Assembly: GCA_947501445.1 (NCBI GenBank)
Contig: CANMVS010000012.1
Location: 62,001 to 126,000 of the forward strand
Source: an uncultured Rhizobiaceae group bacterium
GTDB taxonomy: Bacteria; Pseudomonadota; Alphaproteobacteria; Rhizobiales; Rhizobiaceae
Length of the DNA: 64,000 bases
Direction of reading: 5' to 3'
Positions 15,614 through 49,740 of this stretch are shown here, in pieces. Each line of letters opens with the position of its first letter. Position 1 is the stretch's first letter. The position numbers and the translations under genes are program-made. Below the pieces are notes generated by a model. That model did no database searches and was not told the DNA's origin. It saw nothing but the letters and a program-made list of their open reading frames with translations.

Positions 15614-15719
15614 GTCTAGACCGTTTCACGTTTTGTCAGAAACGGGACAACGGTTTCGGCCTTTGATTTTGTTTGTGCATTCAGGTTTTGCCGATTCCGT
15701 CAAAAGCTGAACTGCTCTG
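15614..15719 (+). repeat. Dispersed 105-bp repeat, copy 1
   Basis: Copy of a repeat found five times in the window. Common landmarks in order are ACCGTTTCACGTTTTGTCAG, AAACGGGACAACGG, GGCCTTTGATTTTG, GCATTCAGG, GCCGATTCCGTCAAA and a GCT end. CCGTTTC/GAAACGG can form a stem around an 11-nt loop, and TTTTG/CAAAA a second one. It lies between apbC and its terminator. Confidence 0.88.
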
Positions 15720-15729
15720 ATGGCAGGTG

Positions 15730-16878
15730 TTATTCAAACACAATCCGTGGGGCCGCAGTGTCCAGCGCCGCCTGACTTTCAAAAATCTGGTCACGAACCT
15801 TGGTCGCCATTTCACGGTAAATGCGGGCATGGGGGCCATCGGGTTGCGACACGACGACGGGTGTGCCCGCATCCGAGTTTTCACGGATATCCATATGCAA
15901 TGGCACGGCACCAAGAAATGGCACGTTGATTTTTTCGGCTTCATCGCGCGCACCGCCATGGCCAAATATATCCGAACGTTCCCCACAGGACGGGCATTGA
16001 AAATAGCTCATGTTCTCAATGAGTCCCAAAAGCGGAACATCAACCTTTTTGAACATATTGAGCCCCTTGCGTGCATCAATAAGCGCAAGGTCCTGCGGTG
16101 TGGATACAATGACGGCTCCGGCGAGCGGCACCTTTTGTGCCAGCGTGAGCTGCGCATCACCGGTTCCCGGTGGCATATCGACCACAATGACATCCAGCGT
16201 TCCCCAATCCACCTCGCGCAGCATTTGTGTCAAAGCGGATACGACCATCGGGCCGCGCCAGATCATCGGTGTATCTTCCGCCACCAGAAATCCCATTGAC
16301 ATGACTTTCAGGCCATAGGCTTCCTTTGGCTTGAGCATGCGACCGCCAACCTCTTCGGGCCGGCCGGTTACATTGAGCAGGCGGGGCATGGACGGCCCGT
16401 AGATATCCGCATCCAAAATGCCAACCTTCAAACCAATCGATTGAAGTCCAAGCGCAAGATTGACGGCGGTCGTTGATTTACCAACCCCTCCTTTGCCCGA
16501 CGCGACGGCTATGATCGAGGCAACCCCGGGCACACCAGGTTTGGCTGGTGCCGGTTGTTTGCCCGGCTCACCGGCGGGCGCCCTTGGGGGCGTGCCATTG
16601 CCCTGTGGTGAATCTGTAGCACCAGGTTTCTTTTCGGCCGTCAAAGCCACCATCGCGCCCTTCACACCGGTGATCGACGTCACCGCCTGTTCTGCAGCCA
16701 TCCGCAAGGGCTCCAGTTTCTGCGCCAAAGCGGCAGGAACCGTGATCGAGAAATAAACCTTGTCATCGGCTATGAAAATATCCGAGATCATATTCTTGCT
16801 GACAATGTCTCCACCAATCGCTGGATGGCTGACACCGGCAAGTTGCTCAAGAACGGCTTCTTTGGTAACTGACGACAT
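15730..16878 (-). CDS. apbC: Iron-sulfur cluster carrier protein ApbC/Mrp
   Basis: P-loop ATPase that holds and passes on Fe-S clusters in the cytosol. The N-terminal DUF59/MIP18-like domain (SSVTKEAVLEQLAGVSHPAI) is joined by a Pro/Ala-rich linker (about residues 100-120) to the Mrp domain. This domain has the deviant Walker A ASGKGGVGKSTTAVNL and the CxxC of YFQCPSCGERSD that binds the bridging cluster. ATG at 16878 has AGGGAA upstream. It is divergent from the acpXL operon, and its transcript runs through repeat copy 1 to a terminator. Confidence 0.93.
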   Translation of the reverse strand: MSSVTKEAVLEQLAGVSHPAIGGDIVSKNMISDIFIADDKVYFSITVPAALAQKLEPLRMAAEQAVTSITGVKGAMVALTAEKKPGATDSPQGNGTPPRAPAGEPGKQPAPAKPGVPGVASIIAVASGKGGVGKSTTAVNLALGLQSIGLKVGILDADIYGPSMPRLLNVTGRPEEVGGRMLKPKEAYGLKVMSMGFLVAEDTPMIWRGPMVVSALTQMLREVDWGTLDVIVVDMPPGTGDAQLTLAQKVPLAGAVIVSTPQDLALIDARKGLNMFKKVDVPLLGLIENMSYFQCPSCGERSDIFGHGGARDEAEKINVPFLGAVPLHMDIRENSDAGTPVVVSQPDGPHARIYREMATKVRDQIFESQAALDTAAPRIVFE

Positions 16879-17173
16879 AATTGGCAATTCCCTGAAAATT
16901 CTGGGTTTGGAGCTGAACAGATCCACTTATTCACACGCACTGCGATACATATGATGCAATGATCGCAAGAACAGTGGAACCGGGCATTGACACGGCAAAT
17001 AGTGCACAATACCGGTTCACACAATGGAATAATCGTCACAACCACGCCACCTATCGTAACCAAATGGCAATGGGAACTGGTATTCGAACAGGAAACTGCA
17101 TACAGACCATTGGCTTTTGCAACGGATTTTTCTATAGCTCACCGCAATCTAGATAAACCACAAGGATATAAGC

Positions 17174-17452
17174 GTGTCTGCCACATTCGATAAAGTTGCC
17201 GACATTATCGCTGAGACGAGCGAAATCGATCGGGAAACCATCACGCCCGAGAGTCACACAATCGATGATCTGGGCATTGATAGCCTTGATTTTCTCGATA
17301 TCGTCTTTGCGATCGATAAGGAATTCGGTATCAAAATACCACTGGAACAATGGACGCAAGAGGTCAATGACGGCAAAGCCGCAACCGAAGAATATTTCGT
17401 TCTGAAAAATCTCTGCGCTAAAATCGACGAACTGAGAGCGGCCAAAGGCTGA
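17174..17452 (+). CDS. acpXL: Acyl carrier protein AcpXL for very-long-chain fatty acid of lipid A
   Basis: Specialised acyl carrier protein carrying the growing C26-C28 hydroxy fatty acid that is attached to lipid A in Rhizobiales. The phosphopantetheine serine is in the motif DSLDFLD (about residue 37). At 92 aa it is longer than housekeeping AcpP (about 78 aa), as known for AcpXL. It uses GTG at 17174 with AAGGAT upstream. It begins the operon acpXL-fabZ-fabF2-fabF1-adh-lpxXL. Confidence 0.93.
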
Positions 17453-17499
17453 AAATCAAGCTCTGATTCGGCAAAGCCCGGACGGCAGGCAGGATAGCG

Positions 17500-17997
17500 A
17501 TGCTTCTTGAATATTTTCAGATGATTGATCGTGTGGAGCGGATTGACCTCGATGCGGGCCAAATCTCTGTGACCTCAATTGTTCCGGACAAAAGTACGGT
17601 TTTCGAGGGGCACTTTCCTGGTCTGCCACTGGTACCGGGCGTTTTGCTGATAGAAACCATGGCGCAGGCCAGCGGTTTCCTGCTGCTGGCCAACAATGAT
17701 TTTGCAGCCATGCCTTTCCTGATGTCCGTGGACAGCGCCAAATTACGCACATTTGTGGAACCGCAAACCGAACTGAATGTTGAAGTTGATCTGGAACATG
17801 AGGGTTCAGGATTTGCTGTGACAAGGGCGCGCATAAAGAGCCAGGGCAAAAAAATCTGCGACGCTCAACTCAAATTTCGCACCGCTGCTTTCAATGCCGA
17901 CGCCGGTATTGATACAAGCGGTCTTGTTGACATCATCAGATCACGCGCTGTCGAGGTAGGTCTTCTTGACGCCCTTTCAGCCAAACAAGCCACCTGA
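17500..17997 (+). CDS. fabZ: 3-hydroxyacyl-ACP dehydratase FabZ-like (VLCFA cluster)
   Basis: Hot-dog-fold dehydratase for the 3-hydroxyacyl-AcpXL intermediates. The FabZ motif GHFPGLPLVPGVLLIETMAQ holds the catalytic His and Glu. Length 165 aa. AGGA precedes the start. The gene is 47 bp after acpXL and 12 bp before the next ketosynthase, consistent with one operon. Function in VLCFA synthesis rather than general fatty acid synthesis follows from context. Confidence 0.92.
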   Translation: MLLEYFQMIDRVERIDLDAGQISVTSIVPDKSTVFEGHFPGLPLVPGVLLIETMAQASGFLLLANNDFAAMPFLMSVDSAKLRTFVEPQTELNVEVDLEHEGSGFAVTRARIKSQGKKICDAQLKFRTAAFNADAGIDTSGLVDIIRSRAVEVGLLDALSAKQAT

Positions 17998-18009
17998 GAG
18001 TAAAAGACC

Positions 18010-19209
18010 ATGAGCAAAAATCCCAATGACGTTGTCATTACGGGTGTTGGCATTGTCAGTTGCCACGGCGTTGGCCGCGAGGCCCATGAAGCGTTGCTGA
18101 ATGCCGAACAGATGCCGGAAACCAAGGTGGATTGCGAGCGATTTGCGCCCTACCCCGTGCACCCGATGCCACAGATTGACTGGTCGACGCAAATTCCGCG
18201 CCGCGGTGATCAGCGGCAAATGGAAAACTGGCAAAGGCTGGGCGTTTTCACCGCCGGATTGGCTCTGGATGATGCCGGGCTGAAGGAAGATGCCGAAGCA
18301 TGTGACACCATGGATATGATTGTTGGTGCCGGCGGTGGTGAACGTGACATATCCGTTGATACGCTTATTATCAACGAAGCGGCAGACCGCAATGACCGTG
18401 AGATACTTCTCAATGAAAAGCTGACAACGGAGCTGCGTCCAACACTGTTTCTGGCGCAATTATCCAATCTGCTGGCAGGCAATATATCCATAGTGCACAA
18501 GGTTGCCGGTTCATCAAAAACCTTCATGGGTGAAGAGGGTGCAGGCATATCTGCAGTTGCAACCGCTTTTGAGCGCATCCGCCATGGCCAATCGACCCAC
18601 GCGCTGGTCGGCGGGGCCTATAATGCTGAACGCTCGGACATGCATCTTCTTTATGAGGGCGTTCAAAGTCTTGGGCGCGACAGCTGGCAGCCGATGTGGT
18701 CACGCAATGATGCTGGCGGTGGGATTATCACAGGTTCAGCCTCTGCCTTTCTTGTTCTGGAATCGCGCCAGTATGCCAATGCACGCGGTGCCCATATCTA
18801 TGCGACGATTGAAGGTGTGGATGGTGACCGCGGCGGTCGGGACAACGATGCAATGGAAGTTCGTTTTGAAACCATGGCAGACAGGAGCGGCGTTTCTGAC
18901 ACCGCCGACCTGTTAATTATGTCCGGCGCTTCGGGACTGCACGAATTGTCCAGACGGGAAAAACAACTGATCGACCGCAAATGGCCACAGGCGGCTTTGC
19001 GCGGTTACAGCGGCCTGCTGGGGCACACCATGGAAGCCCAATTTCCGATCGGCGTGGCTCTTGCTGCACTGGCATTGAAAACCGGTGCCAAACTGCCCAG
19101 ATTTGACCCCGAAATGGAAACCGGCATGCAGGATAGTGCCAAACAGGCGCTGGTCACGACAATCGGGTTCTTTCGTGGTGAAGGCCTGGCTAAGCTGAAA
19201 GCTGAATAG
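18010..19209 (+). CDS. Ketosynthase-like protein FabF2XL lacking catalytic Cys
   Basis: Beta-ketoacyl-ACP synthase homologue of the VLCFA operon, 399 aa. The thiolase fold is recognisable (VVITGVGIVSCHG at the N-terminus, GGAYNAERSDM, AGGGIITGSASAFLVLE, GLLGHTMEAQFPIGVALAAL). Aligned by eye with the next gene, the nucleophilic Cys is replaced by Glu176 (FMGEEGAG). The first active-site His motif (NAHGTSTPEND) is also absent, and only a GHT motif remains near the end. It may therefore work as a non-condensing or chain-length-factor partner of the following ketosynthase; that role is inferred. Confidence 0.85.
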   Translation: MSKNPNDVVITGVGIVSCHGVGREAHEALLNAEQMPETKVDCERFAPYPVHPMPQIDWSTQIPRRGDQRQMENWQRLGVFTAGLALDDAGLKEDAEACDTMDMIVGAGGGERDISVDTLIINEAADRNDREILLNEKLTTELRPTLFLAQLSNLLAGNISIVHKVAGSSKTFMGEEGAGISAVATAFERIRHGQSTHALVGGAYNAERSDMHLLYEGVQSLGRDSWQPMWSRNDAGGGIITGSASAFLVLESRQYANARGAHIYATIEGVDGDRGGRDNDAMEVRFETMADRSGVSDTADLLIMSGASGLHELSRREKQLIDRKWPQAALRGYSGLLGHTMEAQFPIGVALAALALKTGAKLPRFDPEMETGMQDSAKQALVTTIGFFRGEGLAKLKAE

Positions 19210-19338
19210 CACACCTTGCATTGGGACACCCTGCGGACCTGATGCAAAATACCAGAACCAATGATAAAACTTTGAGGCACAGCGTTTAGCGGATTCAGCA
19301 ACGTTGAAAATTCTCAAAAGCCCATATGGGAAACCGAT

Positions 19339-20622
19339 ATGAATAAGAGTGCTTATACCGACCATCTTGGCAGACCATTGATCGCCGTTACCGGCATGGG
19401 AATTGTAACGTCCCTGGGTCAGGGCAAAGACGACAACTGGAATGCACTGACCAGCGGCACCTCGGGAATACATGCCATAACAAGGTTCCCCACAGATGAA
19501 CTCGCGACGCGTATCTGCGGAACGGTCGACTTTATGGATGCACCAAAAGTGTCCAGTGAGTTGTCCTTCACCTTTGCCAATGCAGCAACCAGCGAAGCGA
19601 TTGCACAGTCCGGAATCAACGGAGATTTCAACGGGCCACTGTTTGTTGCAGCACCGCCGGTCGAGTGTGAATGGTCGGACCGTTTTGCCCTTGGCGATGA
19701 GGCCGCATTGGGCGCACATCAGGAGAATGCCTATACCGGGATCCTTCAGGTCATGCGCAATAGATACCACGAAGGTTTTACCCGCTCCTCCCTCTTCGGC
19801 ACAGTGGCTGAACGCATTGCAGATACCTATGGAACACGCGGCCTGCCGGTAACATTGTCAACGGCCTGTGCCTCAGGGGCAACAGCAATTCAGCTGGGTG
19901 TTGACGCTATTCGCCAGGGCAGAACAAACCGCGCCCTGACCGTTGCAACCGACGGCTCTGTCAATGCCGAAGCACTTATCCGGTTTTCGCTTCTATCCGC
20001 ACTATCCACACAAAACGATGTGCCCGAAAAAGCATCAAAACCCTTCACCAGGGACCGCGATGGTTTTGTCATTGCGGAGGGAAGCGCCGCACTGGTGCTG
20101 GAATCTCTCGAGAGTGCCATTGCGCGTGGTGCCAAAGTGCTGGGTATTCTTAAGGGCTATGGCGAAAAGGCGGATCATTTCCACCGCACGCGTTCATCGC
20201 CCGATGGTGGTCCGGCCATTGCAACCATTCAGGCGGCGCTGCGCGATGCCGGCCTTGATGAAAATGGCATTGGCTATATCAATGCACACGGCACATCGAC
20301 ACCTGAAAACGACAAGATGGAGTATCAGTCGCTCTCCACAGTTTTCGGCGATCAGCTTGCCAATATCCCGGCGTCATCAAACAAATCGATGATTGGCCAC
20401 ACACTGACTGCCGCAGGCGCAGTTGAAGCGGTATTTTCCATGCTGACCATCGCCACGGGCACGCTGCCACCAACCATTAATTTTGAAAATCCAGACCCGG
20501 CAATCGAGATGGATGTGGTGCCAAACGTCAAGCGCAATCACCCGGTCACGTCAGTGCTTTCCAATTCATTTGGCTTTGGCGGTCAGAACGCCTGCCTTGT
20601 CATGACGGCAGAACCAGCCTAA
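19339..20622 (+). CDS. Beta-ketoacyl-ACP synthase FabF1XL (active, VLCFA cluster)
   Basis: Condensing enzyme elongating the very-long-chain acyl group on AcpXL. The catalytic triad is complete: Cys177 in LSTACASGATAIQLG, His in NAHGTSTPENDK and Lys/His in SNKSMIGHTLTAAGAVE. Length 427 aa, FabF type. It follows the degenerate ketosynthase by 129 bp. The pairing of an active and an inactive ketosynthase recalls KS-alpha/KS-beta pairs of type II polyketide systems. Confidence 0.92.
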   Translation: MNKSAYTDHLGRPLIAVTGMGIVTSLGQGKDDNWNALTSGTSGIHAITRFPTDELATRICGTVDFMDAPKVSSELSFTFANAATSEAIAQSGINGDFNGPLFVAAPPVECEWSDRFALGDEAALGAHQENAYTGILQVMRNRYHEGFTRSSLFGTVAERIADTYGTRGLPVTLSTACASGATAIQLGVDAIRQGRTNRALTVATDGSVNAEALIRFSLLSALSTQNDVPEKASKPFTRDRDGFVIAEGSAALVLESLESAIARGAKVLGILKGYGEKADHFHRTRSSPDGGPAIATIQAALRDAGLDENGIGYINAHGTSTPENDKMEYQSLSTVFGDQLANIPASSNKSMIGHTLTAAGAVEAVFSMLTIATGTLPPTINFENPDPAIEMDVVPNVKRNHPVTSVLSNSFGFGGQNACLVMTAEPA

Positions 20623-20676
20623 ACGGCACCTCAGACATAACGACCAAGACCGCTAACACCAAGGACCGCCCCCGTC

Positions 20677-21705
20677 ATGCGCGCATTGCAGCTCATTGAA
20701 GACCGAAAGCTCGAAGTAACCGATATTGCGCCGCCCCCCGAACCGGCGGCTGGTGAGGTCACACTCCGCATCAGGGCCGTCGCACTGAACCATATTGACG
20801 TCTGGGGCTGGCGCGGTATGGCCTTTGCCAAACGCAAGCTGCCACTGGTTATTGGTGCAGAGGCCTCAGGTGAAGTTGAGGCCGTGGGACCCGGTGTTTC
20901 CAGTTTGCTACCTGGACAGCTTGTCTCCATCTATGGCGCTCGCACCTGTGGTTTGTGTCAGCCGTGCCGGGAAAAACGCGATAATCTTTGTGAACATGTC
21001 TCTGGCGTCCACGGCTTTCATCTGGATGGATTTGCCCAGGAGCTGATCAATCTTCCCGCCCGATTGCTGGTCCCTGCCCCTCCCGGCGTTGACGCCATTG
21101 GTGCGGCTCTGGCACCGGTGACTTTCGGTACGGTTGAGCACATGCTGTTCGACAATGCGAAACTGCAGCCGGGTGAAAATATCCTGATACACGCTGGCGG
21201 CTCAGGCATCGGATCTGCCGCCATTCAACTGGCCAAGAAACATGGCTGCACCGTCTACACCACTGTTGGCTCCGACGACAAAATTGAAAAAGCGCGTGCA
21301 CTGGGTGCCGATCACGTCATCAATTATCGCGAAGACCGTTTTGAGGGGGTTGTCAGAAAACTGACAAAAAAGAAGGGTGTTGACGTCGTCTTTGAACACG
21401 TTGGTACCGATACAATTCCCGGCTCCATGCTGTGTATGAAGCGTGGTGGACGGCTCGTCACCTGCGGATCAACATCCGGTGTTTCTGCACAGGTCAATCT
21501 GATGATGCTGTTTCAGCAGCAGTTGCGACTCATCGGCTCCTTCGGCTGCCGAATGGAGAATATGGCTGATTCCATGCAGAAGATGGCAAAAGGACTTGTT
21601 CATCCTGTGATCGATACCCAGGTGCAACTGGATGATATCGATACGGCACTTGAGCGCATGGAAGGGCGCAAAGTGTTTGGGAAAATCCTTCTGAAGATGG
21701 ATTGA
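20677..21705 (+). CDS. Zinc-type alcohol dehydrogenase/reductase of the VLCFA cluster
   Basis: Medium-chain dehydrogenase/reductase, 342 aa. It has the structural-zinc cysteines CGLCQPCREKRDNLC and the Rossmann motif IHAGGSGIGSAAIQLAKKHG. In the known rhizobial acpXL cluster this position holds adh2XL, thought to act as an enoyl- or keto-reduction partner in VLCFA synthesis; its exact reaction is not shown by the sequence. Its stop overlaps the possible start of lpxXL. Confidence 0.88.
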   Translation: MRALQLIEDRKLEVTDIAPPPEPAAGEVTLRIRAVALNHIDVWGWRGMAFAKRKLPLVIGAEASGEVEAVGPGVSSLLPGQLVSIYGARTCGLCQPCREKRDNLCEHVSGVHGFHLDGFAQELINLPARLLVPAPPGVDAIGAALAPVTFGTVEHMLFDNAKLQPGENILIHAGGSGIGSAAIQLAKKHGCTVYTTVGSDDKIEKARALGADHVINYREDRFEGVVRKLTKKKGVDVVFEHVGTDTIPGSMLCMKRGGRLVTCGSTSGVSAQVNLMMLFQQQLRLIGSFGCRMENMADSMQKMAKGLVHPVIDTQVQLDDIDTALERMEGRKVFGKILLKMD

Positions 21706-22640
21706 TCAGCGTGAATCTTTACATGACGCGTTGGGCTCTGCGCATATATAAGGCCAAAAACTGGCTGGTTGCGCAATTGATTTTTTCAATTCTGTCTATC
21801 TTGAGGTTGCTGCCGGCACGGCGCGCGATACGCTTCACTGAGAAGATGGCCTATAAAATCGGCCCAAGAACAGCACGCCACAAACTTGTGCTGCATAATC
21901 TGGAACGTGCACTTCCTGATAAATCGCAAGAGGAACGCGAGGCCATCGCGCTTGATATGTGGGGCCATATGGCACGGCTGATGGCCGAGTATATTTTTGT
22001 CGATGTTCTGATTGATGATGATGTCAGCGAAGACGGTTCCGGCCTCATTGAAGTGGTAGGTATTGAACGGTTTCTCGAACTGCGCGACAACCCTCGCCCA
22101 TTTATCGTTTTCACGGCCCACACCGGCAATTTTGAACTACTGCCTATTGTTGCCGCCAAATATGGTCTGAATGTCACGGCCATGTTCAGGCCACCCAACA
22201 ACCCCTACATCGCCAAAAAACTACTGTCTGCCAGACGCACCCATATGGGCGCGCTAGTCCCGTCCAAAGCCGGTGCCGCATGGAATCTTGCCAGTGTGCT
22301 TGAGGCTGGCAAAGGTGTGGGGCTTCTCGTCGACCAGAAATTTCACAAGGGCGCTACCACACAGTTTTTTGGCATGGATGTTCAGACGAACCCTCTATTG
22401 GCAAAACTTGCCCGCAATTTTGACTGTGATGTCTATCCGGCGCGCTCCATTCGCCTGCCTGGCGGCCGGTTCCGGCTTGAAATTGAACCAGCAGTGACAA
22501 TGCCGCTGGATGACAAAGGCAATCTTGATGTGACAGCGACCGCGCAGCTCCTTAACGACAAGGTTGAGAGCTGGGTACGCGAGTATCCGGGCCAATGGAT
22601 GTGGTTTCATGATCGCTGGCGGATAAAACATACGCTGTAG
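21702..22640 (+). CDS. lpxXL: Lipid A VLCFA acyltransferase LpxXL (HtrB/MsbB family)
   Basis: Membrane-bound acyltransferase transferring the C28-type acyl group from AcpXL to lipid A. The lysophospholipid-acyltransferase motif HTGNFE (HX4E) is at about residue 140, preceded by an N-terminal hydrophobic segment. About 312 aa, typical. The start is unsettled: TTG 21702 overlaps the dehydrogenase stop, while GTG 21711 and ATG 21723 are alternatives. It ends the acpXL operon, and repeat copy 2 follows. Confidence 0.9.
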   Translation: MISVNLYMTRWALRIYKAKNWLVAQLIFSILSILRLLPARRAIRFTEKMAYKIGPRTARHKLVLHNLERALPDKSQEEREAIALDMWGHMARLMAEYIFVDVLIDDDVSEDGSGLIEVVGIERFLELRDNPRPFIVFTAHTGNFELLPIVAAKYGLNVTAMFRPPNNPYIAKKLLSARRTHMGALVPSKAGAAWNLASVLEAGKGVGLLVDQKFHKGATTQFFGMDVQTNPLLAKLARNFDCDVYPARSIRLPGGRFRLEIEPAVTMPLDDKGNLDVTATAQLLNDKVESWVREYPGQWMWFHDRWRIKHTL

Positions 22641-22667
22641 GCATACGCTCCGGGTACCCCGAAGCCG

Positions 22668-22771
22668 TTTAGACCGTTCGACGTTTTGTCAGAAACGGGA
22701 CAACGGTGTCGGCCTTTGATTTTGTTGATGCATTCAGGTTTTGCCGATTCCGTCAAAACATGAATTGCTCT
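22668..22771 (+). repeat. Dispersed 105-bp repeat, copy 2
   Basis: Same landmarks and orientation as copy 1, but the first stem is damaged (ACCGTTCGACG instead of ACCGTTTCACG). It lies between the convergent lpxXL and membrane-protein genes, just past the end of lpxXL. Confidence 0.88.
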
Positions 22772-22849
22772 ATTCCGCTTGGGCTTGGGATGTGCACAGG
22801 TTTGTGTTTTCCTTGGGTTTAACCGGGCGTAATGCTCAACACACGGCAC

Positions 22850-23491
22850 TCACACTTCAAGTGGTTCGCCCTCCAGCGGTTTCGCAAAGCCGCGTCTGGT
22901 CGAGCGGCCCAAAGCCATCGCCAGAACAATTGTGCCATACAGTGTGAACAGATAAAGCGGGTAAGCCAGCAATACAAAATCGAGCTGTCCGACAGAGCAG
23001 ATTGCACAAATCGAGGCAAAAAGAGAAACCACCCAGGTGACCATCGTCTCGCTGTCGGGATCACGATAGGACTTTATGACCGTAACACTGCCACCCAGCA
23101 GGCTGATCGAGATTGTAATGACCAGTGCGTAGGCCGCAGATTCCGTCTGCTGCCAAAGCACAAGTCCAAATGCGGCGCAGGCGAGAACAAGGAAATCGGT
23201 AGTTTTGAGATAATGTCCGACCCCTCTCCATATCGACAGAAGTAATACAATCACAGTGCCAGACACCTGCACCCCGGCAAACCAAATCGATGCAGCTGCC
23301 CCTTCATGGACCTGCGAAAAAAATGCAATCGATCCAAGCACGGACCAGATCAGCCAGGATGCTCGCTGTGGCCGTGTTCGACCGGCAATGATGTCGATGA
23401 TATAGGGGATATAGGCGAAGATACTTAACATACCCGAAAAGACACCAAGGATTGTCAGGTGTGTCATTGTATCAAAGAACTCACTGCCCAT
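22850..23491 (-). CDS. Polytopic membrane protein, possibly PQ-loop/SemiSWEET-like
   Basis: Unassigned inner-membrane protein of 213 aa with about seven hydrophobic segments. The first segment contains FAYIPYIIDIIAGRTRPQRA followed by SWLIW, reminiscent of the PQ-loop motif of SWEET/SemiSWEET carriers, and a second, weaker repeat follows (VTVIKSYRDPDSETMVTWVV). Start ATG 23491 has GGAAAG upstream; ATG 23467 is an alternative. Sugar or other solute transport is only a suggestion. Confidence 0.7.
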   Translation of the reverse strand: MGSEFFDTMTHLTILGVFSGMLSIFAYIPYIIDIIAGRTRPQRASWLIWSVLGSIAFFSQVHEGAAASIWFAGVQVSGTVIVLLLSIWRGVGHYLKTTDFLVLACAAFGLVLWQQTESAAYALVITISISLLGGSVTVIKSYRDPDSETMVTWVVSLFASICAICSVGQLDFVLLAYPLYLFTLYGTIVLAMALGRSTRRGFAKPLEGEPLEV

Positions 23492-23817
23492 GGATCCCGC
23501 TTTCCTTGTCCGGGAAGCCGCTCGACCATGTTAAAACAGCCATCATCAAAATCGCCCCCGGCACGAAATTGATTGCGATGAAGGTGTTTGAATGTGGATG
23601 CGATGTCTGTGCGAAATCCCACCGAAAAGCGATCCAGTGTGTGGTTTACAGGCCAGGCAACGGCCCATCCCATAAATCGGGGATGGCAACTGCAATTCAC
23701 GTGATTTGATTGAGTGGTGCCCTGTCAAAACTACGGTGATGGGTATTCCTAACCCATTACCGTAATTTCTTGTTCCGTTGCCGCTCAGTCATCTGCAGGC
23801 GGCCAGGGTTTTCGGGT
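23492..23817. other. Intergenic region, no gene recognised
   Basis: Short open frames occur on both strands (for example a 78-residue one on minus at 23464-23700) but none has a recognisable motif or a convincing ribosome-binding site. Some of it may be gene debris. Confidence 0.5.
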
Positions 23818-23920
23818 TTAGACCGTTTCACGTTTTTGTCAGAAACGAAACAACCGTATCGGTCTTTGATTTTGTCGATGCATTCAGGTCTTACCGATTC
23901 CGTCAAACATGAATTGCTCT
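23818..23920 (+). repeat. Dispersed 105-bp repeat, copy 3
   Basis: Most diverged plus-strand copy (AAACGAAACAACCG for AAACGGGACAACGG, TTACCGATTCCGTCAAA for TTGCCGATTCCGTCAAA) yet alignable from end to end. It lies downstream of the L,D-transpeptidase gene, about 1.1 kb from copy 2. Confidence 0.85.
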
Positions 23921-24069
23921 GGGCAATCATCCCCGAAATCAGCGCTTTTCAAGCACGAAGAGAAACACAAAAGTCCGCGCAGAACGACAGTCATTCAATC
24001 CAGGAAAATAGGCCTCAGCCCCCGAAAGTCAGACCACAACCCGACAGGGCCGTGGTCTTCTGTGCGAAG

Positions 24070-24501: not shown

Positions 24502-24559
24502 TGTCCCTCTCCATCGAAACGCTGCGGCGCGATGCCCCCCGTTTCGCAAAATATACTAC

Positions 24560-40493: not shown

Positions 40494-40612
40494 GCCGTCT
40501 CACGCTGACAATGTTCTAGGCAAAGCGGGAAGCAAGGTCAAACACAAACGCGGCAGATGACGTGTGGGATGCGACATGGGGTGTGGGGATGGTGGATCAA
40601 GTTGGACCAAAC

Positions 40613-40658: not shown

Positions 40659-40662
40659 ATGA

Positions 40663-41572: not shown

Positions 41573-41574
41573 GG

Positions 41575-41621
41575 CGCAACAGTTCGCATTAATTAGCAAT
41601 TATGTAGACCGTCATCGCAGT
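41575..41621 (+). repeat. RAYT-flank repeat, copy B
   Basis: GCGCAACAGTTCGCATTAAT, then AGCAATTATGTAGACCGTCA. It lies directly before the start of RAYT relic 1 and is similar to copies A, C and D. Confidence 0.65.
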
Positions 41622-41627
41622 GCGAAT

Positions 41628-41999: not shown

Positions 42000-42088
42000 T
42001 TGCTATTGCTTCCTGATAGTGGAATGTTTTTTGTTGATTGTGCTCATCAAAATATGCCTCAATATCGTTTAATAATGCCTCAACTACC

Positions 42089-42181
42089 CTATGGATTTAT
42101 CCCGGTAATATCACCGACATGGGCCTCTGCCCGCGAAGCGGCGAAAAACCGGATGGAAAACGGGACGAATGGGCGCGTCAT
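42089..42181 (-). pseudogene. Truncated duplicate of the cob-operon small His-rich membrane protein
   Basis: From ATG 42181 it reads MTRPFVPFSIRFFAASRAEA, then HVGDITGINP and a stop. This matches MTRLFIPFSILFFAASGAKA and HVGHVGDLAG of the 40117-40350 protein. The nucleotide match extends upstream of the ATG to about 42210 (CCGGCTGGCATTTTT against TCGGCTGGCATTTTT), so it is a DNA duplication of about 110 bp. The membrane span and tail are missing. Confidence 0.8.
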
Positions 42182-42373
42182 TTCAAAACCTTCGGCTGGC
42201 ATTTTTTGGCATGGTTCAACCATTTCGATGAATCAGTTATTGTGTCCGCTTTTGATGGGTTCAAAATGATGTTCGCCCTATGGGCAACAAGCCCGCCGAC
42301 AGCTGATTGTGCGGCAGCCCTAAATACATGCGCCTCTGTTGGGGAGCCGCCTCATAGTTGCAGTACGGAAGCA

Positions 42374-43246: not shown

Positions 43247-43378
43247 TTAGACCCCCATCAAAATGCTGCCAGATATTACCCTATTCCAATAATCCATAGA
43301 ACTCCTAATGAATATCCTTCGCAGGCATCCATGTCGTGTCTCTCCGAGCGTTTGTCTAATTTTCAACCCTAGTTTTTT

Positions 43379-43438
43379 GGGAGAAATTACCAGGTTGACG
43401 GCGATGCCTCTAGTGTTGATTTTGAGCAGTATCACTAG
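43379..43438 (+). pseudogene. HigB (RelE-type) toxin C-terminal remnant
   Basis: The 20-codon stretch GRNYQVDGDASSVDFEQYH plus stop resembles the conserved HigB ending (FRFxxGDAxxVDxxDYH). It ends 16 bp before the higA start, the usual distance in higBA operons. Upstream frames are broken by stops. The match is short and judged by eye. Confidence 0.45.
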
Positions 43439-43454
43439 AAAGGAGAATTTTGCG

Positions 43455-43763
43455 ATGACCGACATTCCCGCTGTACGCCATCCTGATCGCTGTCCTTCTC
43501 ATCCTGGTGCAGTAATTTCTGATATCCTTCCCGATATCGGTATTCACAAAGGTGTACTGGCTGAAATGCTTGGCATTTCACGTCAGCAGCTTTACGACAT
43601 CATGAACGAACGCATACCGGTTTCCCCGGCGATAGCTGCCCGACTTGGCAAGCTGTTTGGTGACGGCGCTAGCATCTGGCTCCGAATGCAGGCTTCATAT
43701 GATGCCTGGCATGCTGAACGTGAGACAGATTTAAGTAACGTCCGTGTTCTCAAAATTGCTTGA
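43455..43763 (+). CDS. higA: HigA-family antitoxin (XRE-type addiction module regulator)
   Basis: DNA-binding antitoxin of 102 aa that normally neutralises and co-represses with HigB. The N-terminal HPGAVISDILPDIGIHKGVL and the helix-turn-helix AEMLGISRQQLYDIMNER are classic HigA, followed by ISPAIAARL-type helices and GDGASIWLRMQASYDAW. ATG 43455 has AAAGGAGA upstream; a longer frame exists but covers the higB remnant. With higB ruined it is probably an orphan. Confidence 0.88.
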   Translation: MTDIPAVRHPDRCPSHPGAVISDILPDIGIHKGVLAEMLGISRQQLYDIMNERIPVSPAIAARLGKLFGDGASIWLRMQASYDAWHAERETDLSNVRVLKIA

Positions 43764-43849
43764 TCTCGAATATTGCAATTTCACTCTCCAACAGAACGGT
43801 GATGTCCAACCCGTAGGCCGCTCGTACTTATGTCTCCGTTCCGGCTTTC

Positions 43850-44169
43850 CATATCCCACAATCAATCCGGATCACCGGTCGGCTTTCGGACTATCTCGGC
43901 ACTGCATAGGTCGGGTCTTCATCAATCGATGTGCGCAAAAAGCCGACGATGCCGCCAGTGGCTCCAGTATTTCCAATGGCGTGGGCGCATGATCAATTGA
44001 ACCCCCACCGTATTAAGCAGGTGGTTCTTGTCCACTGTCCCATAGCGCCCGGCCATAAATGCCAGTCACCCGCGTACGGGCTTTTGGTATAGTCCGAATA
44101 GCGCCTGTTACCGGTGTTGGGTGCTGTATTGGGGAAGACCAGGGATTACAGACAAGCGCGATAGGCCAT
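43850..44169 (-). pseudogene. REP-associated transposase (RAYT) relic 2
   Basis: Heavily decayed. From ATG 44169 the DNA aligns to relic 3 at the start (MAYRACL, then VFPNT). It matches again near the C-terminus, where TTTTTGCGCA, then CGATTGATGAAGACC and CTATGCAG parallel the segment of relic 3 encoding LRKPIDKDQAYAA. Several stops and deletions lie between. Confidence 0.65.
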
Positions 44170-44170
44170 A

Positions 44171-44216
44171 GTACAACAGTTGGAATTAGTCAGGACCTGG
44201 TAAACCATCAACACGT
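44171..44216 (+). repeat. RAYT-flank repeat, copy C
   Basis: GTACAACAGTTGGAATTAGT, then GGTAAACCATCAACACG. It lies directly before the start of RAYT relic 2. Confidence 0.6.
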
Positions 44217-44278
44217 ATTTCCATCCAGTGAATATATTGACGACATGAGTAAATTACTGAGAGTAGCCAGTTCACACC

Positions 44279-44701
44279 TTATAGCTTTTCGATATTGCCA
44301 TTAAAGCGTACGACGAAAAGTGCCTGCCCTAAGCCCGTCCCGTTGAAATAATAGTCGGCCGTTGGGATAATCCTTATTAGTGAAAAGACTTCAAGAGGAC
44401 GCCGATATAGATAGACCACGTGCCATTTGCTCGGGTCTGTCCCATCATTGTGATAAGAATAACATGTTTGATATTTGTAAATATAAAAATACGTCTGAAA
44501 CCAGCAATCGTGCCGCTTATTGCCCTCCCAATCTATTTCTCGAGTTTCATAACTTGCATAAAAATTGGCATCGTTTGCGAGTATTCTTTTGTCAGAAACA
44601 AAATACATAATTTTGTCCGTCACAAATAGGCACAATAATATGACCAGTATTGCTCCGGGATTATCCACAAACCAATTAACAATTCGGCTTTCAGTAATCA
44701 T
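44279..44701 (-). CDS. Hypothetical membrane-anchored protein
   Basis: A 140-aa protein with one membrane segment near the N-terminus (AILVILLCLFVTDKIMYFVS) followed by a Tyr-rich soluble part (YFYIYKYQTCYSYHNDG). No family is recognised. It is A/T-rich compared with the core genes and sits between RAYT relics 2 and 3, so probably acquired. Confidence 0.5.
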   Translation of the reverse strand: MITESRIVNWFVDNPGAILVILLCLFVTDKIMYFVSDKRILANDANFYASYETREIDWEGNKRHDCWFQTYFYIYKYQTCYSYHNDGTDPSKWHVVYLYRRPLEVFSLIRIIPTADYYFNGTGLGQALFVVRFNGNIEKL

Positions 44702-44769
44702 ATGCTAGCGACCCATACACTTTGTTGAAGTCAACGTTCTATCTTGGTATCTCGAATTGGGGTGACAGC

Positions 44770-45424
44770 TCACTCTATCCCTTTGTGCCCCGGTTTCCTG
44801 CCCCGTTTACCCGATTCAAGCACTTGCCTGGTCCGATTTTCCAGGGCCTTCAACCATTCCGGGTTACCGATTATATCGGCGCGCCTTAGAGCTGCATAGG
44901 CCTGGTCTTTGTCAATCGGTTTGCGCAAAAAAACGGGCGAAGTTTCCGTTGCACTCCAGTATCGATGCGACCTTCACCAAGGCATCATCAATCCCGGTCA
45001 GATGCACCCGTGCGCTCGACCAATTCCAGTCGCGTGGACGTTTGACCAATTTGGCCCGCACAGGATTGAGCGTTACATTGCGTACTGCATTGAGCAGATG
45101 GTTCTCATCCATCACCACAGATCCAAAGCACTCCTGCCACAAATGCCCGGTCACCCGCGCACGCGCATAGACATAACCTGTATAGCGCTTGTGCAGATCG
45201 GCAAAGGTGCGGTACAGCCCATCTTCATCGGATGGCACAAGGATGACGTGGACATGGTTTGGCATCAGGCAATAAGCTCAGACGGCACACTTGGCATGCG
45301 AACTGCTGTCCTCCAATAGATCCAGATAAATCGTATAATCGTCCCCTTCGAAAAAAGCCTTTCCACCGCTGTTGCCGTGTTGGGCAACGCGACGGGGAGG
45401 TCCAGGAACAACAAGGTGGGCCAT
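44770..45424 (-). pseudogene. REP-associated transposase (RAYT/Y1-Tnp) relic 3, most complete
   Basis: Almost full length. From ATG 45424 it reads AHLVVPGPPRRVAQHGN, then an in-frame TGA where relic 1 encodes Trp (AV-stop-AYCLMPNHVHVIL). It continues with PNHVH (metal-binding HUH), LWQECFGSVVMDENHLLNAV and RNVTLNPVRAKLVKRP. A one-base expansion of a T-run near 44928-44934 then shifts the frame to LRKPIDKDQAYAALRRADII and ESGKRGRKPGHKGIE. Two lesions make it inactive. RAYTs mobilise or maintain REP palindromes. Confidence 0.9.
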
Positions 45425-45426
45425 GG

Positions 45427-45472
45427 GTCAACAGTTTGTATTTATTAGCAATTATGTAAACCATCACCGCAA
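45427..45472 (+). repeat. RAYT-flank repeat, copy D
   Basis: GTCAACAGTTTGTATTTATT, then AGCAATTATGTAAACCATCA and CCGCA. It lies directly before the start of RAYT relic 3 and closely matches copy B. Confidence 0.65.
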
Positions 45473-45522
45473 TTTGAAAAACAAGCTTTGCCAGATCCAG
45501 CGCGCTTGTTGTAACGTGACCC

Positions 45523-46197
45523 ATGGCCTTCATGAAATTTTCAAAACACGTTCTTAATAGCACCCTGCAAAGCGGGTGGGAGCATCACCACTACCTGGTG
45601 AAACACTTTCTTGTCCATTCCACAGCTGCCGCGCTGCTTCTTGTTGCGCTGCCTGCCCATGCTGACATTCGGGCCAAGGAAATCGAAAAGACCTACGCGA
45701 TTTCCGGGACGAGCGGCCTGGCGCTTTACAAGTCGATTGGCGCACGTGGCCCACGCCTTCGTAAAGGCGCATCAAGCGCCATAGCCCAGACCGATTTCGA
45801 TCTGAAATGGGGCCGCGACTACAAGCGTGACGGCAATGATTGCGTGCTGGCCGTCGTGCGGCCCTTCCTGACCATCACCTATACCCTGCCGAAACCGGCG
45901 AAAAAACTGGCGCCGGACGTCGCCGCCCGCTGGCGTATCTTCATCAAGGGCATTCGCGCCCATGAAGCCGTCCATGGCCAATATATCACCGAAATGGCGC
46001 AGGAAATCTACGACACGACACTTGGCTTCAGGCAGCAGAATGACCCCAACTGCAAGACGATCCGCAACGCCATACAGGCCCCCCTCAAGGCCGCCTTTGT
46101 GCGCTACAAGACCCGCAACCGCACCTTTGAACAGGATGAGATGAGTGCCGGCGGCAATGTCCAACAGCTGATCCTCCAGCTGATCAACGGGCGTTAG
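45523..46197 (+). CDS. Secreted DUF922-family Zn-protease-like protein
   Basis: Exported protein of up to 224 aa. A hydrophobic signal (STAAALLLVALPAHA) lies about residues 33-47, so a shorter start such as ATG 45532 or GTG 45598 may be real. The mature domain has RAHEAVHGQYITEMA with an HExxH-like HEAVH metal motif, as in DUF922 predicted zinc proteases. Two Cys (NDCVLAVV and DPNCKTIRN) are kept. The target is unknown. Repeat copy 4 follows the stop at once. Confidence 0.82.
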   Translation: MAFMKFSKHVLNSTLQSGWEHHHYLVKHFLVHSTAAALLLVALPAHADIRAKEIEKTYAISGTSGLALYKSIGARGPRLRKGASSAIAQTDFDLKWGRDYKRDGNDCVLAVVRPFLTITYTLPKPAKKLAPDVAARWRIFIKGIRAHEAVHGQYITEMAQEIYDTTLGFRQQNDPNCKTIRNAIQAPLKAAFVRYKTRNRTFEQDEMSAGGNVQQLILQLINGR

Positions 46198-46207
46198 GGA
46201 GATTTAG

Positions 46208-46297
46208 GCTTTGACTGAATCGGCAAAGCCTGATGCATCAACGAAATCAAAGGCCGACACCGTTGTCCCGTTTCTGACAAAACGTGAAACGGTCTGG
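46208..46297 (-). repeat. Dispersed 105-bp repeat, copy 4 (inverted, shortened)
   Basis: Reverse-orientation copy: TTTGACTGAATCGGCAAAGC, then GAAATCAAAGGCCGACACCG, TTGTCCCGTTTCTGACAAAA and CGTGAAACGGTCTGG. The GAATTGCT end is missing. It follows the DUF922 gene by 10 bp. Confidence 0.88.
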
Positions 46298-46537
46298 TAC
46301 AAATGTCCCACTGACACGGCGGCCTTTGGCGGAATCGCAAGACAAATTACGGTGTCTTCAATCAACTTGCGCCGTCAATCAGCCTGCCAGTCGTCTCTGG
46401 CGCAACAATGTAGAACAGACCTGATTTCTGCCAATCAGTGTGCTCAAAAAGCGGGGACAATCACCGCATCTGCGGAGAAGCCCTGGCCCTATTGTTCAAC
46501 CAAGGATATACGCTGCAGGAATGCCCAGCCAAAACCG
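46298..46537. other. Intergenic region, no gene recognised
   Basis: Between repeat copy 4 and the next gene. Short frames on plus strand show no motif. No terminator or promoter stands out. Confidence 0.5.
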
Positions 46538-47158
46538 TCACTGCTTTCCGGCTGGTCCCAGCCCAAACAAGCGCCTCCAGCCCGCAACCGGCTTTGAATA
46601 GGCGCAACGGTCCGGAAGCAGATCAACCTGCCAGGATCGATGCAGGGATGCGTTTACACAATGGGCAAGGCTGAGCGAGACAGACTTGAGATTTTTTCGC
46701 TCGCCAGACGTTGCAACGGCACTCAGACTATCCGGTTTGCAGATATCCGGACTGACCAGTTTGAATTCATTTCTGAAGGCAACCATCGCCTTTTCAACCA
46801 GCTCATCTTCTACAACGGCAAGGCCGCCCCAATAGAGTTCCTCGAAACGATCACAATCATCGGCATATTCGCCGATGCATTTTTCATCGCCCGTCAGACA
46901 TTGTGCTGTCGCAAGCCGCCCGGTAACCGCAACCGCTTCTTCGTAAAGCTTGAACTGAAATTCCAGAAATGGCTTTTTGGCCTCAAGAGCACGGGTGTCC
47001 AGATAGGAGTAAACTGTCCACACCAGACCCATTATTGCGACAATGCTGCCAACGGCCTTCAACAGGGACGCTACCCAGCCGTAGGTTTTTGTCTTGGCCT
47101 TGGTGTTGGTGTTGGTGTTTTCGGGATCGGACACGGCTTCCTCCAGTAATGATGGCAA
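46538..47158 (-). CDS. Hypothetical single-span membrane protein
   Basis: A 206-aa protein. A Thr/Asn/Lys-rich N-terminus (NTNTNTKAKTKT) is encoded by a short tandem ACCAAC-like repeat, which may vary in length. One membrane segment follows (LLKAVGSIVAIMGLVWTVYS), then a helical domain with several Cys (TAQCLTGDEKCIGEYADDCD). No family is recognised. Confidence 0.6.
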   Translation of the reverse strand: MPSLLEEAVSDPENTNTNTKAKTKTYGWVASLLKAVGSIVAIMGLVWTVYSYLDTRALEAKKPFLEFQFKLYEEAVAVTGRLATAQCLTGDEKCIGEYADDCDRFEELYWGGLAVVEDELVEKAMVAFRNEFKLVSPDICKPDSLSAVATSGERKNLKSVSLSLAHCVNASLHRSWQVDLLPDRCAYSKPVAGWRRLFGLGPAGKQ

Positions 47159-47397
47159 GTGTAGTGCAATTGCCTGGCCTTTTACAATCGAACACCCCGT
47201 CTATGCGCGTGGACCGGAACCAGCGCGGCCCACGGCATTGATCACATGATATTCATCCACAGGTACGTATTGCGCCTTCATAGGTGACCGCATCACCAAT
47301 TTGCCCATCCTCAACGCGGGGTGTACAGGCAACCCTCGCATCGTTCTTCACAAAACCATGGCCGCCATGCCCATGAGAAGCAGCATCGGATCTTGAT

Positions 47398-47787
47398 ATG
47401 AAACGCCAGTCAATCGTACCACAGGAACTGGAATCCTATTACACCGATTGGAAAATGTCGCCGGGATTGATTTCAGGCGAACACGTCTTTTTCACCGGGT
47501 TCACGGGTGCAGGTTCAGATGGACGTCTGTCAGACGACCCTGAAATACAGATGCGCAATGCCTTTGAAAAGATCGGCTATGTTTTGCGCGACGCAAATTT
47601 GAGCTTTGGGTCGATTGTCGAGATGACGACCTACCACGTGGGGCTTCGCGATCATCTCGATGTGTTCAAATCGGTTCGAGCCGAATATGTAAAAGAACCC
47701 TATCCAGCATGGACCGCAATAGAAGTGGCGGGGTTTGTGAGAGAGGGTGCCATTATCGAAATTCGTGTGATCGCTGCTATTGGATAA
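47398..47787 (+). CDS. RidA/YjgF family protein
   Basis: Small trimeric-family enzyme of 129 aa. RidA proteins deaminate reactive enamine/imine intermediates from PLP enzymes. Visible blocks: VFFTGFTGAGSDG, MRNAFEKIGYVLRDANLSFG and a C-terminal YPAWTAIEVAGFVREGAIIE. The substrate-binding Arg of RidA (IEIRVIA here) is near the end. It stands alone before the SRPBCC gene. The 239 bp before it contain no recognised gene. Confidence 0.88.
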   Translation: MKRQSIVPQELESYYTDWKMSPGLISGEHVFFTGFTGAGSDGRLSDDPEIQMRNAFEKIGYVLRDANLSFGSIVEMTTYHVGLRDHLDVFKSVRAEYVKEPYPAWTAIEVAGFVREGAIIEIRVIAAIG

Positions 47788-47955
47788 CCGTACGGATGCA
47801 GGTCTGCCCTTTGAACCGGGCACCGGTCCAATTCGCCGCATGTCATTGGGTAGAAGCGTTTGCTAGACCGGGTTTGGATTTGTTGCCCGCAAAGACTTGA
47901 GGGACAACGGAACCGGATAAATGCAGCACCCGAATTTCTAAAGAGGATGTCCTTT

Positions 47956-48396
47956 GTGAAAACAGTTCTGGTCGAAAGTGAATACCCTGTCTCCACGAAC
48001 AGACTGTGGGCACTGGTAACCGATTATGGCGCACTTGCTGAGGTGATGAAGGGCATTGCCACTTTTGAAGGATTGCCACCGGGTCGATCAGCGACAGGTC
48101 AAACCATGAACATTATGGTCTCATTATTCGGCAAACTGCCAAAACAGCCCTACACCATTGACATTGTCGAGTGTGATGACGACCGGATGATTTTGCGTTC
48201 ATCGGAGAAAGGGAGCGGCGTAAAAAGCTGGCGCCACACGCTGACGGTCACCCAAACCACCACCGGTTGTCGATTGACGGATTGTATTGAGATCGACGCC
48301 GGGTTGCTCACGCCTGTCTTTGCACGTTGGGCAAAATATCTCTATGGCGCCCGCCACAAACCGCGCCTTGAACTGTTGAAAAACGGCCGTTTTTAG
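47956..48396 (+). CDS. SRPBCC family protein (polyketide cyclase/START-like)
   Basis: A 146-aa protein with the ligand-binding helix-grip pattern: VSTNRLWALVTDYGALAEVM at the start and CRLTDCIEIDAGLLTP with RHKPRLELLKNGRF at the end. The ligand is unknown. GTG at 47956 has AAGAGG nine bases upstream; ATG 47947 abuts the same AAGAGG and is less likely. Confidence 0.82.
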   Translation: MKTVLVESEYPVSTNRLWALVTDYGALAEVMKGIATFEGLPPGRSATGQTMNIMVSLFGKLPKQPYTIDIVECDDDRMILRSSEKGSGVKSWRHTLTVTQTTTGCRLTDCIEIDAGLLTPVFARWAKYLYGARHKPRLELLKNGRF

Positions 48397-48528
48397 AACC
48401 CGATTCAACCGGGACCGTTTCACATGTGGTTGACCGGGCAAGTCAAATACCTACTGAGCCGACAACAGCGGTAAGCCATTGTTCATAATGCACCCTCGGG
48501 TTTGTGAGACAGGAACCATAAAAACAGA

Positions 48529-49512
48529 TCAGGGCGCATTGCGTTCTGCTCGTTTTGCCAGTTTTTGTGCCAGATTCTCGCCAACACCGGGCCGTGACCA
48601 GGGACATACGGCAATACAGATGGCGCAACCGGATGTTTCGGCAAAAAACGGTATGCATTTGTCAAAATCCACGTACCATTTTTCAGTGCCGCGCACAGTC
48701 TGCTTTTCGGAAGATATGGCAAAAGGTGGGCAGGCATCTTCGCAGACCCGGCACCGGGAGCAAAAATCATCCACGCCAAATTCCCGCTTGGATGTATGCG
48801 CGAAGGGCGCATCTGTCAGCACGGCTCCAAGACGAAACGCTGATCCGAATTCCTTGTTGATCAGGGACCCGTGCTTGCCCAATTCACCAAAGCCGCATTC
48901 AAGCGCCGGTGGGATCATCAGGATTTTGCCGACCATTGGCCCGGTCACAGGATCTGCGTCCCAACCCTGTTGCCGCAACCACCCGGCCACTTTCTTTGCC
49001 GCCGCTGCCGCCCGGCAATATTGATAGGTGACCTCTATGCCACCGCGTGTTTCAGGCACATATTTGAGCTCATCATAGGTATGTTGAACACCCAGCATGA
49101 CAACGGTGCCAAAATCGGTCTGGTGATGGGAAAACACCCATTCGGGTTGCAGCGCCGTTGCACCAACCATTTCACAATCGCCCCGACCAATGAACTGATC
49201 GAGTGCTGCCGTCCATTCGTCGGGTGTGCGCTGTGTCTGGTCAGCAGCCAGATCCGGCAGGGGCGCATCCAGAATTTCCTTGCGCCGCTTTCTGTGTTCC
49301 ATCAAAACCGGATCAGCGGGCTCATTGCCATAAAACCACTTCTGGACCTCACCAAATGCAATATCGTCAGGATCAGGTGCCCAATAGACCATATCCGGCT
49401 GGCGGGTTTTGCTTTCACCCAATCCGTTGATGGCATTGCCGGTTACATCCGGTCTGCGCGCCATCATGTCGGGATTGGGTTTAAAGGGACGATAGGGGTT
49501 TTGCTTTGGCAT
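48529..49512 (-). CDS. Reductive dehalogenase/QueG-like Fe-S protein
   Basis: A 327-aa cytoplasmic protein without a Tat signal. The cofactor-domain block GKHGSLINKEFGSAFRLGAV, then LTDAPF, is typical of the reductive-dehalogenase/epoxyqueuosine-reductase superfamily, which uses a corrinoid. Two ferredoxin-type clusters follow: CSRCRVCEDACPP and CAICIAVCPWSRP. It is far shorter than NpRdhA-type catabolic dehalogenases, and the N-terminus differs from QueG. ATG 49512 gives MPKQNPYRPF; a GTG at 49548 is possible. Substrate unknown. Confidence 0.78.
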   Translation of the reverse strand: MPKQNPYRPFKPNPDMMARRPDVTGNAINGLGESKTRQPDMVYWAPDPDDIAFGEVQKWFYGNEPADPVLMEHRKRRKEILDAPLPDLAADQTQRTPDEWTAALDQFIGRGDCEMVGATALQPEWVFSHHQTDFGTVVMLGVQHTYDELKYVPETRGGIEVTYQYCRAAAAAKKVAGWLRQQGWDADPVTGPMVGKILMIPPALECGFGELGKHGSLINKEFGSAFRLGAVLTDAPFAHTSKREFGVDDFCSRCRVCEDACPPFAISSEKQTVRGTEKWYVDFDKCIPFFAETSGCAICIAVCPWSRPGVGENLAQKLAKRAERNAP

Positions 49513-49638
49513 GATGATACGCACCCAGCTCCTGTTACCTTTGTGCACCCGTTTGACGCAAAAAGAACCAATCCATCCTGCGCATCAATGCACCGGTTGT
49601 GCCAATGTGTACCCAGCATAGCACATTTGATGCGCCAG

Positions 49639-49740
49639 CCAGACCGTTTCACGTTTCGTCAGAAACGGGACAACGGTGTCGGCCTTTGATTTTGTTGATG
49701 CATTCAGGAATTGCCGATTCCGTCGAAACCAGAATTGCTC
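49639..49740 (+). repeat. Dispersed 105-bp repeat, copy 5
   Basis: Nearly identical to copies 1 and 2 in its core (AGAAACGGGACAACGGTGTC, GGCCTTTGATTTTGTTGATG). The first stem CCGTTTC/GAAACGG is intact. It lies between the Fe-S protein start and the end of the enolase-family gene. Confidence 0.9.

Follow-up and report, generated by a model that had tools for sequence, protein, structure and literature searches.

The 64,000-nucleotide stretch of DNA analysed here (contig CANMVS010000012.1, positions 62,001 to 126,000; hereafter the window) comes from a Rhizobiaceae genome (the home genome, G000; 6.82 Mb in 110 contigs) and carries five dispersed palindromic repeats. For one gene of the window, the nearest named loci are from two MAGs labelled "Rhizobiaceae bacterium" (83-84% protein identity) and from JANSYK010000001.1 (76%), in keeping with this assignment. 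The repeats are most probably non-autonomous elements of 98-99 bp, similar to miniature inverted-repeat transposable elements (MITEs), which reside at TA sites and would be mobilised in trans by a DDE transposase that duplicates the TA. A covariance-model search of the window returned the five copies at E-values of 7.8e-21 to 1e-15; the model had been built partly from the same copies, and DNA searches recovered the same five. The five dispersed repeats reported in a preliminary description of this DNA are real. The covariance model yields no sixth element in the window, as the sixth row (E 0.0059) is the palindromic shadow of copy 2 on the opposite strand, and no Rfam family matches the window at gathering score.

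The window copies belong to an abundant family. With 40 of 632 first-look candidates scored, 41 matches were obtained genome-wide, and a profile search of 864 kb (two 400-kb stretches and the window) detected 90 non-overlapping copies, 63 of them nearly full length; three further stretches bring the sample to 96 non-overlapping copies in 924 kb, numbers well above what chance would give. Extrapolation suggests a total of about 700 copies in the home genome, which agrees with whole-genome searches that gave 632 and 658 first-look candidates. The constant core of the element, GACCGTTTC...AATTGCTC, measures 98-99 bp, and the family consensus including the flanking dinucleotides reads TA-GACCGTTTCACGTTTTGTCAGAAACGGGACAACGGTGTCGGCCTTTGATTTTGTTGATGCATTCAGGTTTTGCCGATTCCGTCAAAACCTGAATTGCTC-TA. 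Its two ends form an imperfect inverted repeat in which 26 of 35 positions agree, the TA being counted. Internally, a linker joins a left hairpin (CCGTTTC/GAAACGG) to a right hairpin (GCATTCAGGTTTTG/CAAAACCTGAATTGC), whose loop is CCGATTCCGT. The first of the two stems seen in the preliminary description therefore stands as described, while the second is long and extends beyond the TTTTG/CAAAA originally noted; the TA ends and the end-to-end inverted repeat were absent from that description.

Indications of mobility come from orthologous sites in relatives that lack the element. When the copy at C1:135729-135828 of the home genome is removed together with one TA, the flanks align over the junction with both G002 and G003, TA included. 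L070, L071 and G002 all lack window copy 1 at the orthologous position, and G002 also lacks the copy at C12:161742-161841. The mapping of empty sites had been proposed as a check; wherever the fetched relatives had collinear flanks, which was the case at three sites, the element was absent (0/3 occupied). The gap between the aligned flanks equals the home-genome gap without the element to within 2-7 bases, save in G002 at the site of window copy 1, where it is 208, compared to 177 without and 277 with the element. In two stretches compared, identity between G002 and G003 is 80% and 78%, and between the home genome and G002 75% and 72%. Even so, the best copies in G002 match the home-genome consensus at 96-99% identity, while G003 has no repeat among the candidates scored and none in 120 kb, which implies patchy spread or loss of the element.

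The flanks of the resident copies indicate the target. The flank profile shows Y-T-A to the left and T-A-R to the right of the constant core, with no signal farther out, and no target duplication longer than TA was flagged in the flank scan. Of the 59 near-full-length copies in which both ends are present, 32 have TA as the left dinucleotide, 12 have TG and 10 have CA; on the right, TA occurs in 23, CA in 12 and TG in 9. The non-TA flanks, mostly TG, CA or CG, likely represent decayed TA in a YTAR-like site. The early suggestion of a MITE-like family is thus supported: the copies number in the hundreds, are flanked by TA and end in imperfect inverted repeats, and empty sites exist in relatives. 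A DDE transposase acting in trans would recognise the ends of the element and insert it at YTAR, duplicating the TA.

The genomic placement of the copies can be read in two ways. Relative to home-made gene calls, none of the 69 placed copies (70 met the length cut) overlaps a called gene by >50 bases; this includes the five window copies, whose intergenic position had been noted before. The nearest feature is a gene 3' end for 56/69, at a median distance of 14 bp, compared to 46% of intergenic YTAR sites that lie closest to a 3' end. Convergent gaps hold 27 copies and 15% of intergenic YTAR sites, divergent gaps 5 copies and 31% of the sites. Such a distribution could reflect selection for elements that help the preceding gene from its 3' end, as terminators, stabilisers of mRNA or RNase III sites, a function the preliminary description had considered in the form of 3'-end processing. 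Sequence conservation within the home genome goes some way with this explanation, since the stems (0.92-0.93) are better kept than the right loop (0.86) or the linker (0.89), although the left loop reaches 0.94, and the stems covary between genera (see below). However, copies at 3' ends show no strand preference (27 sense, 29 antisense), those in tandem gaps are 13 sense and 24 antisense, and the repeat was not found in 6/7 same-genus genomes with up to 14 candidates scored in each. Moreover, the three copies scanned contain only weak matches of 5-6 pairs to a terminator, and an intrinsic terminator was rejected for them. A selected 3'-end function is thus unlikely, and the placement is more in keeping with insertion and subsequent loss of the harmful copies than with a directional signal at 3' ends. 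Under transposition, the 3'-end bias would arise from the purging of insertions in genes and promoters, and the resident copies are probably without a specific cellular function.

A particular form of this placement is found at 15 copies, in which the junction TA lies within the stop codon of the neighbouring gene, since a stop codon in the context YTAG or YTAA is itself a YTAR site and G is the first base of the element. Compared to the 69 placed copies this is more than the 10.8% expected (p 0.01; the list ran over 70), but among 3'-end sites such junctions are not enriched (15/56 vs. 23.5%, p 0.53). Their number is what the 3'-end location gives anyway. Genes would tolerate an insertion in a YTAR stop codon, as the terminal G of the element would restore TAG.

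Which enzyme moves the element is a more tentative matter. IS711 is a member of the IS5 family, and Brucella is a genus related to the host. An IS711-like IS5-family enzyme may be considered the first-choice mover, at somewhat less than an even chance, with an IS630-type enzyme as an alternative ranked below it. The IS5 type is preferred because the published target rule of IS711 is the same (YTAR, TA): the Brucella insertion sequence (IS) is described as 842 bp long, duplicating the TA of YTAR and being associated with the Bru-RS repeats (PMC2266754). On contig C2 of the home genome (L207:1077-1919), there is an 843-bp IS5-family IS with two open frames (NF033580; DUF4096 plus DDE_Tnp_1). TA adjoins it on both sides, and its position is precisely that of the outer YTAR of one repeat copy. 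IS630 was rejected as a resident partner, as no DDE_3 match is present in the home genome.

The preliminary description also pointed to a possible link with REP-associated tyrosine transposases (RAYTs), i.e., to repetitive extragenic palindromic (REP) sequences mobilised by a Y1 tyrosine transposase. The elements are indeed palindromic and extragenic, and a degenerate Y1_Tnp remnant lies ~0.8 kb from copy 4 (Table 1). This remnant, however, is the only Y1_Tnp match in the home genome; none occurs in six other genomes in which the repeat or a relative of it is present (G002, G011, G015, G020, G146 and G165), whereas five of six same-genus genomes without the repeat (G001 and G003-G006) do contain Y1_Tnp, and the sixth, G007, has neither. 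Published REP sequences are described as 20-40 bp long with GTAG or CGTC tags (PMC3733652), in contrast to the ~100-bp, TA-ended element reported here. As Y1_Tnp does not track with the repeat across genomes, RAYTs were rejected as movers, and mobilisation of this kind is very improbable.

Several observations weigh against transposition of the element by a DDE enzyme. Collinear flanks were available for only 3/95 copies tested, and a strict joined-flank test was informative for 2/66 home-genome and 0/7 G002 copies. At two of the three empty sites the target TA is invisible, as the intergenic DNA is too diverged, so that a single TA is seen at one site. The two dinucleotides flanking one copy agree no more than chance (18/46 vs. 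17.4 expected), and their agreement as reverse complements is 22 vs. 17.6 expected (p 0.08); the TA duplication therefore rests on the profile and the one empty site. The 220 kb of fetched G002 stretches contain 7 copies, of which 4 score only 51-76 bits, and many copies in G002 are therefore old, not all young. An autonomous partner was not found among the two families searched in the home genome, DDE_Tnp_1 and DDE_3: the five DDE_Tnp_1 loci showed no repeat-like ends, with the limit that clear ends could be recognised in just one of them (L207), and DDE_3 gave no match. The placement, finally, depends on home-made gene calls.

The five window copies are listed in Table 1. Compared to the preliminary coordinates, all five copies hold, but 46208-46297 is slightly short, since copy 4 reaches the stop codon of the DUF922 gene. 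Single copies fold variably: only copy 1 clearly beats shuffled sequences (z -3.0), and copies 2-5 give z values of -1.15, 0.13, -1.57 and -0.78, respectively. Copies 2 and 3 (window 22670-23921), in direct orientation, bracket ~1.05 kb of DNA; the minus strand of this interval holds an open frame of 213 aa, for which neither a Pfam match nor a relative in the DNA fetched from relatives was found. In G003, only 54 bases separate the matches flanking this interval. Other pairs of copies in the same orientation occur at C12:130547-130770 (25 bp apart) and C2:198551-198879 (130 bp apart) of the home genome.

Table 1. Repeat copies and related features of the window; the coordinates of the copies take in the flanking dinucleotides.
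Feature	Position	Strand	Flanks (left / right)	E-value	Remarks
Copy 1	15617..15719	+	TA / TG	7.8e-21	
Copy 1, arms	left ~15619-15646; right ~15677-15715	+			
Copy 2	22670..22772	+	TA / TA	1.1e-20	~30 bp past lipid A acyltransferase gene
Copy 3	23819..23921	+	TA / TG	1e-15	one 1-base insertion and one 1-base deletion
Copy 4	46195..46296	-	CA / TA (own left and right ends)	4.4e-18	right-end TA within TAG stop codon of DUF922 gene
Copy 5	49640..49742	+	CA / CA	1.2e-19	
Degenerate Y1_Tnp (RAYT-like) remnant	45095..45355	-			one in-frame TGA; 24.1 bits vs. cut-off 23

Searches of other genomes with the consensus, as the preliminary description had proposed, revealed diverged versions of the element in other Rhizobiaceae genera. 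The home-genome consensus matched 5/61 genomes and a query of the G020/G011 type 5/199, while the covariance model matched 20/394 Rhizobiaceae genomes at E 0.001 (rough E-values, with at most 10 candidates scored per genome); each of these counts includes the query's own genome. Matches of >65 bits occur in ten genomes of five genera (g1, g5, g14, g64 and g71). Eight loci at 38-40 bits share the common plan at most, and chance matches may be among them. The covariance model missed G015, in which five short BLAST matches led to a TA-ended two-hairpin form at four of the five loci printed. Two alignments were used to follow the structure across these genomes: A1, with 27 sequences from five genomes, and A2, with 26 sequences from 18 genomes, which shares five copies with A1 and leans to the model, as its sequences were aligned to it. 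In A1, 29 structure cells are changed on both sides, compared to 11.9 in shuffles. Neither the count of pairs with such changes (5 vs. 4.1) nor that of pair types (15 vs. 16.3) exceeds the shuffles, however, and the covariation signal is largely one split between lineages. In A2, both sides are changed in 14/21 pairs vs. 6.0 in shuffles, and 0/500 shuffles reach 14; the nine pairs that RNAalifold predicts from A1 all belong to the right arm. From these changes and the predicted pairs it follows that the right arm is conserved as a structure by compensatory changes between genera, while the evidence for the left arm is weaker; an inner stem of the left arm common to all genera was not supported. 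The possibility that there were only five copies, lacking any conserved structure, is thus excluded by the 96 copies and the compensatory stem changes.

Partial copies reveal a mosaic side of the family. Of 26 listed partial copies, six retain the linker but have another left end, close to CTAGGGTCTGTTGAGGATCAGGATTGCGGTGTCGGC, and five of these six retain the right arm as well; among the other partial copies, some end near model position 68. The family is therefore mosaic. Searched with a model of the alternative left end, the sample yields 13 matches at E up to 1, of which two are weak. The alternative end CTAGGGTCTGTTGAGGATCAGG stands inverted at both sides of two relics, at L042:18633-18902 (~270 bp) and L027:10512-10683 (~170 bp); the second end of the shorter relic is a weak match. 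Both relics possibly belong to a second TA-flanked element family. In plasmids, the alternative left arm hit 17 records at E up to 10 and the 270-bp relic hit three; the two and one of these, respectively, that were inspected contain only the short BLAST match without a second end, and the hits are taken as chance. The element consensus itself has no match in plasmids or phages, and a G020 copy has a single 23-base match in plasmids, in Bacteroides. In L036, upstream of position 9654, a repeat fragment is neighboured by a distinct imperfect palindrome (~72 bp) that carries CTAG at either end.

The statement in the preliminary description that no named element matches proved too strong, as CIR, Bru-RS and RIME share the size class or the host group, and CIR has the same plan in print. 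CIR (Chen and Shapiro, 2003, as described in PMC2229807) is characterised there as a ~110-bp intergenic repeat of Alphaproteobacteria in which a linker connects two inverted-repeat arms, one of them with GANTC at its loop, and whose termini are TA. The same review, of 2007, enters CIR in its table with terminal inverted repeats (TIR) as "-" and target site duplication (TSD) as "?", and calls for more information on mobility (PMC2229807). By these descriptions, the element resembles CIR in its two arms and linker, TA termini, size, GANTC in one loop of the consensus and intergenic position, but it differs from the tabulated entries in its imperfect inverted ends and empty sites, as well as in its hundreds of copies and in the loss of GANTC from resident copies. 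It thus appears to share the CIR plan; likened by description alone, it is not filed as CIR here. The Brucella repeats Bru-RS1 and Bru-RS2 are described as palindromic intergenic repeats of 103-106 bp with 35-40 copies (PMC10800456; PMC2266754; PMC2267715). They are similar to the element in size, palindromic nature and intergenic position and, as at the one locus L207 here, in their association with an IS that targets YTAR/TA, but their published copy number contrasts with the ~700 extrapolated here. The Rhizobium-specific intergenic mosaic elements, RIME (Osteras, 1995, as cited in PMC2573895 and PMC2245857), are by these citations likewise rhizobial, intergenic and mosaic, which is similar to the family here, where an alternative left arm is found with the usual linker and right arm. 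Their described size, host group or mosaic character makes Bru-RS and RIME possible kin of the element. More distantly, RUP of pneumococcus is given as 107 bp long with 108 copies and a TA target, and its mobilisation in trans by IS630-Spn1 was proposed (PMC2229807); length, target and a proposed IS acting in trans are shared, whereas the element has a two-arm fold and no matching IS was found in the home genome. No known IS end or REP family was found to contain the repeats, with CIR, RIME and Bru-RS weighed by description only, and searches by topic or with home-genome consensus strings, whose coverage leaves out most subscription journals, returned no published account of the element.

The GANTC site shared with CIR raises the question whether it is the reason why copies are kept, namely as a CcrM-related chromosomal mark, an idea attached to CIR. 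The right loop contains GATTC in the home-genome consensus, in most G002 copies shown and in 8/10 g14 and g5 copies of A1. A RAMA domain, which is linked to CcrM, is present in all four genomes examined (G000, G002, G003 and G020) and, among 14 control genomes, only in Caulobacter. GANTC as such is scarce in the home genome, with 1372 occurrences vs. ~3598 expected from base composition in 924 kb (L009-L048, the window and L253-L255), which would suit a mark of this kind. However, GANTC is intact in only 38/69 full-length resident copies vs. 51.8 expected from each copy's own divergence, which makes it the third least preserved of 96 windows; in the 14 least diverged copies it is intact in 9 vs. 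12.5 expected, in a wider set in 44/87, and among cross-genus matches of >65 bits in 10/16. Given this loss, and the lower conservation of the right loop than of the right stem (0.86 vs. 0.93), no maintained function of the site is visible in the home genome, and a chromosomal mark is highly unlikely. Dam sites license the transposition of IS10 and IS50 by hemimethylation after replication. By analogy, GANTC might serve the mobile cycle instead, with a CcrM site in the right end licensing transposition by post-replication hemimethylation and decaying after fixation. This is an outside possibility, but, if true, CIR-like repeats of Alphaproteobacteria would be cell-cycle-coupled transposons.

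Two-armed, TA-ended repeats of Alphaproteobacteria, i.e., CIR and perhaps Bru-RS and RIME, have been on record for decades. The element of the home genome is ordinary in kind, large in number, and useful since its insertion is readable: a lineage with an estimated ~700 copies, relatives without copies and readable empty sites make mobility testable, and the element offers YTAR with its TA as a target rule, together with end sequences and candidate enzymes.

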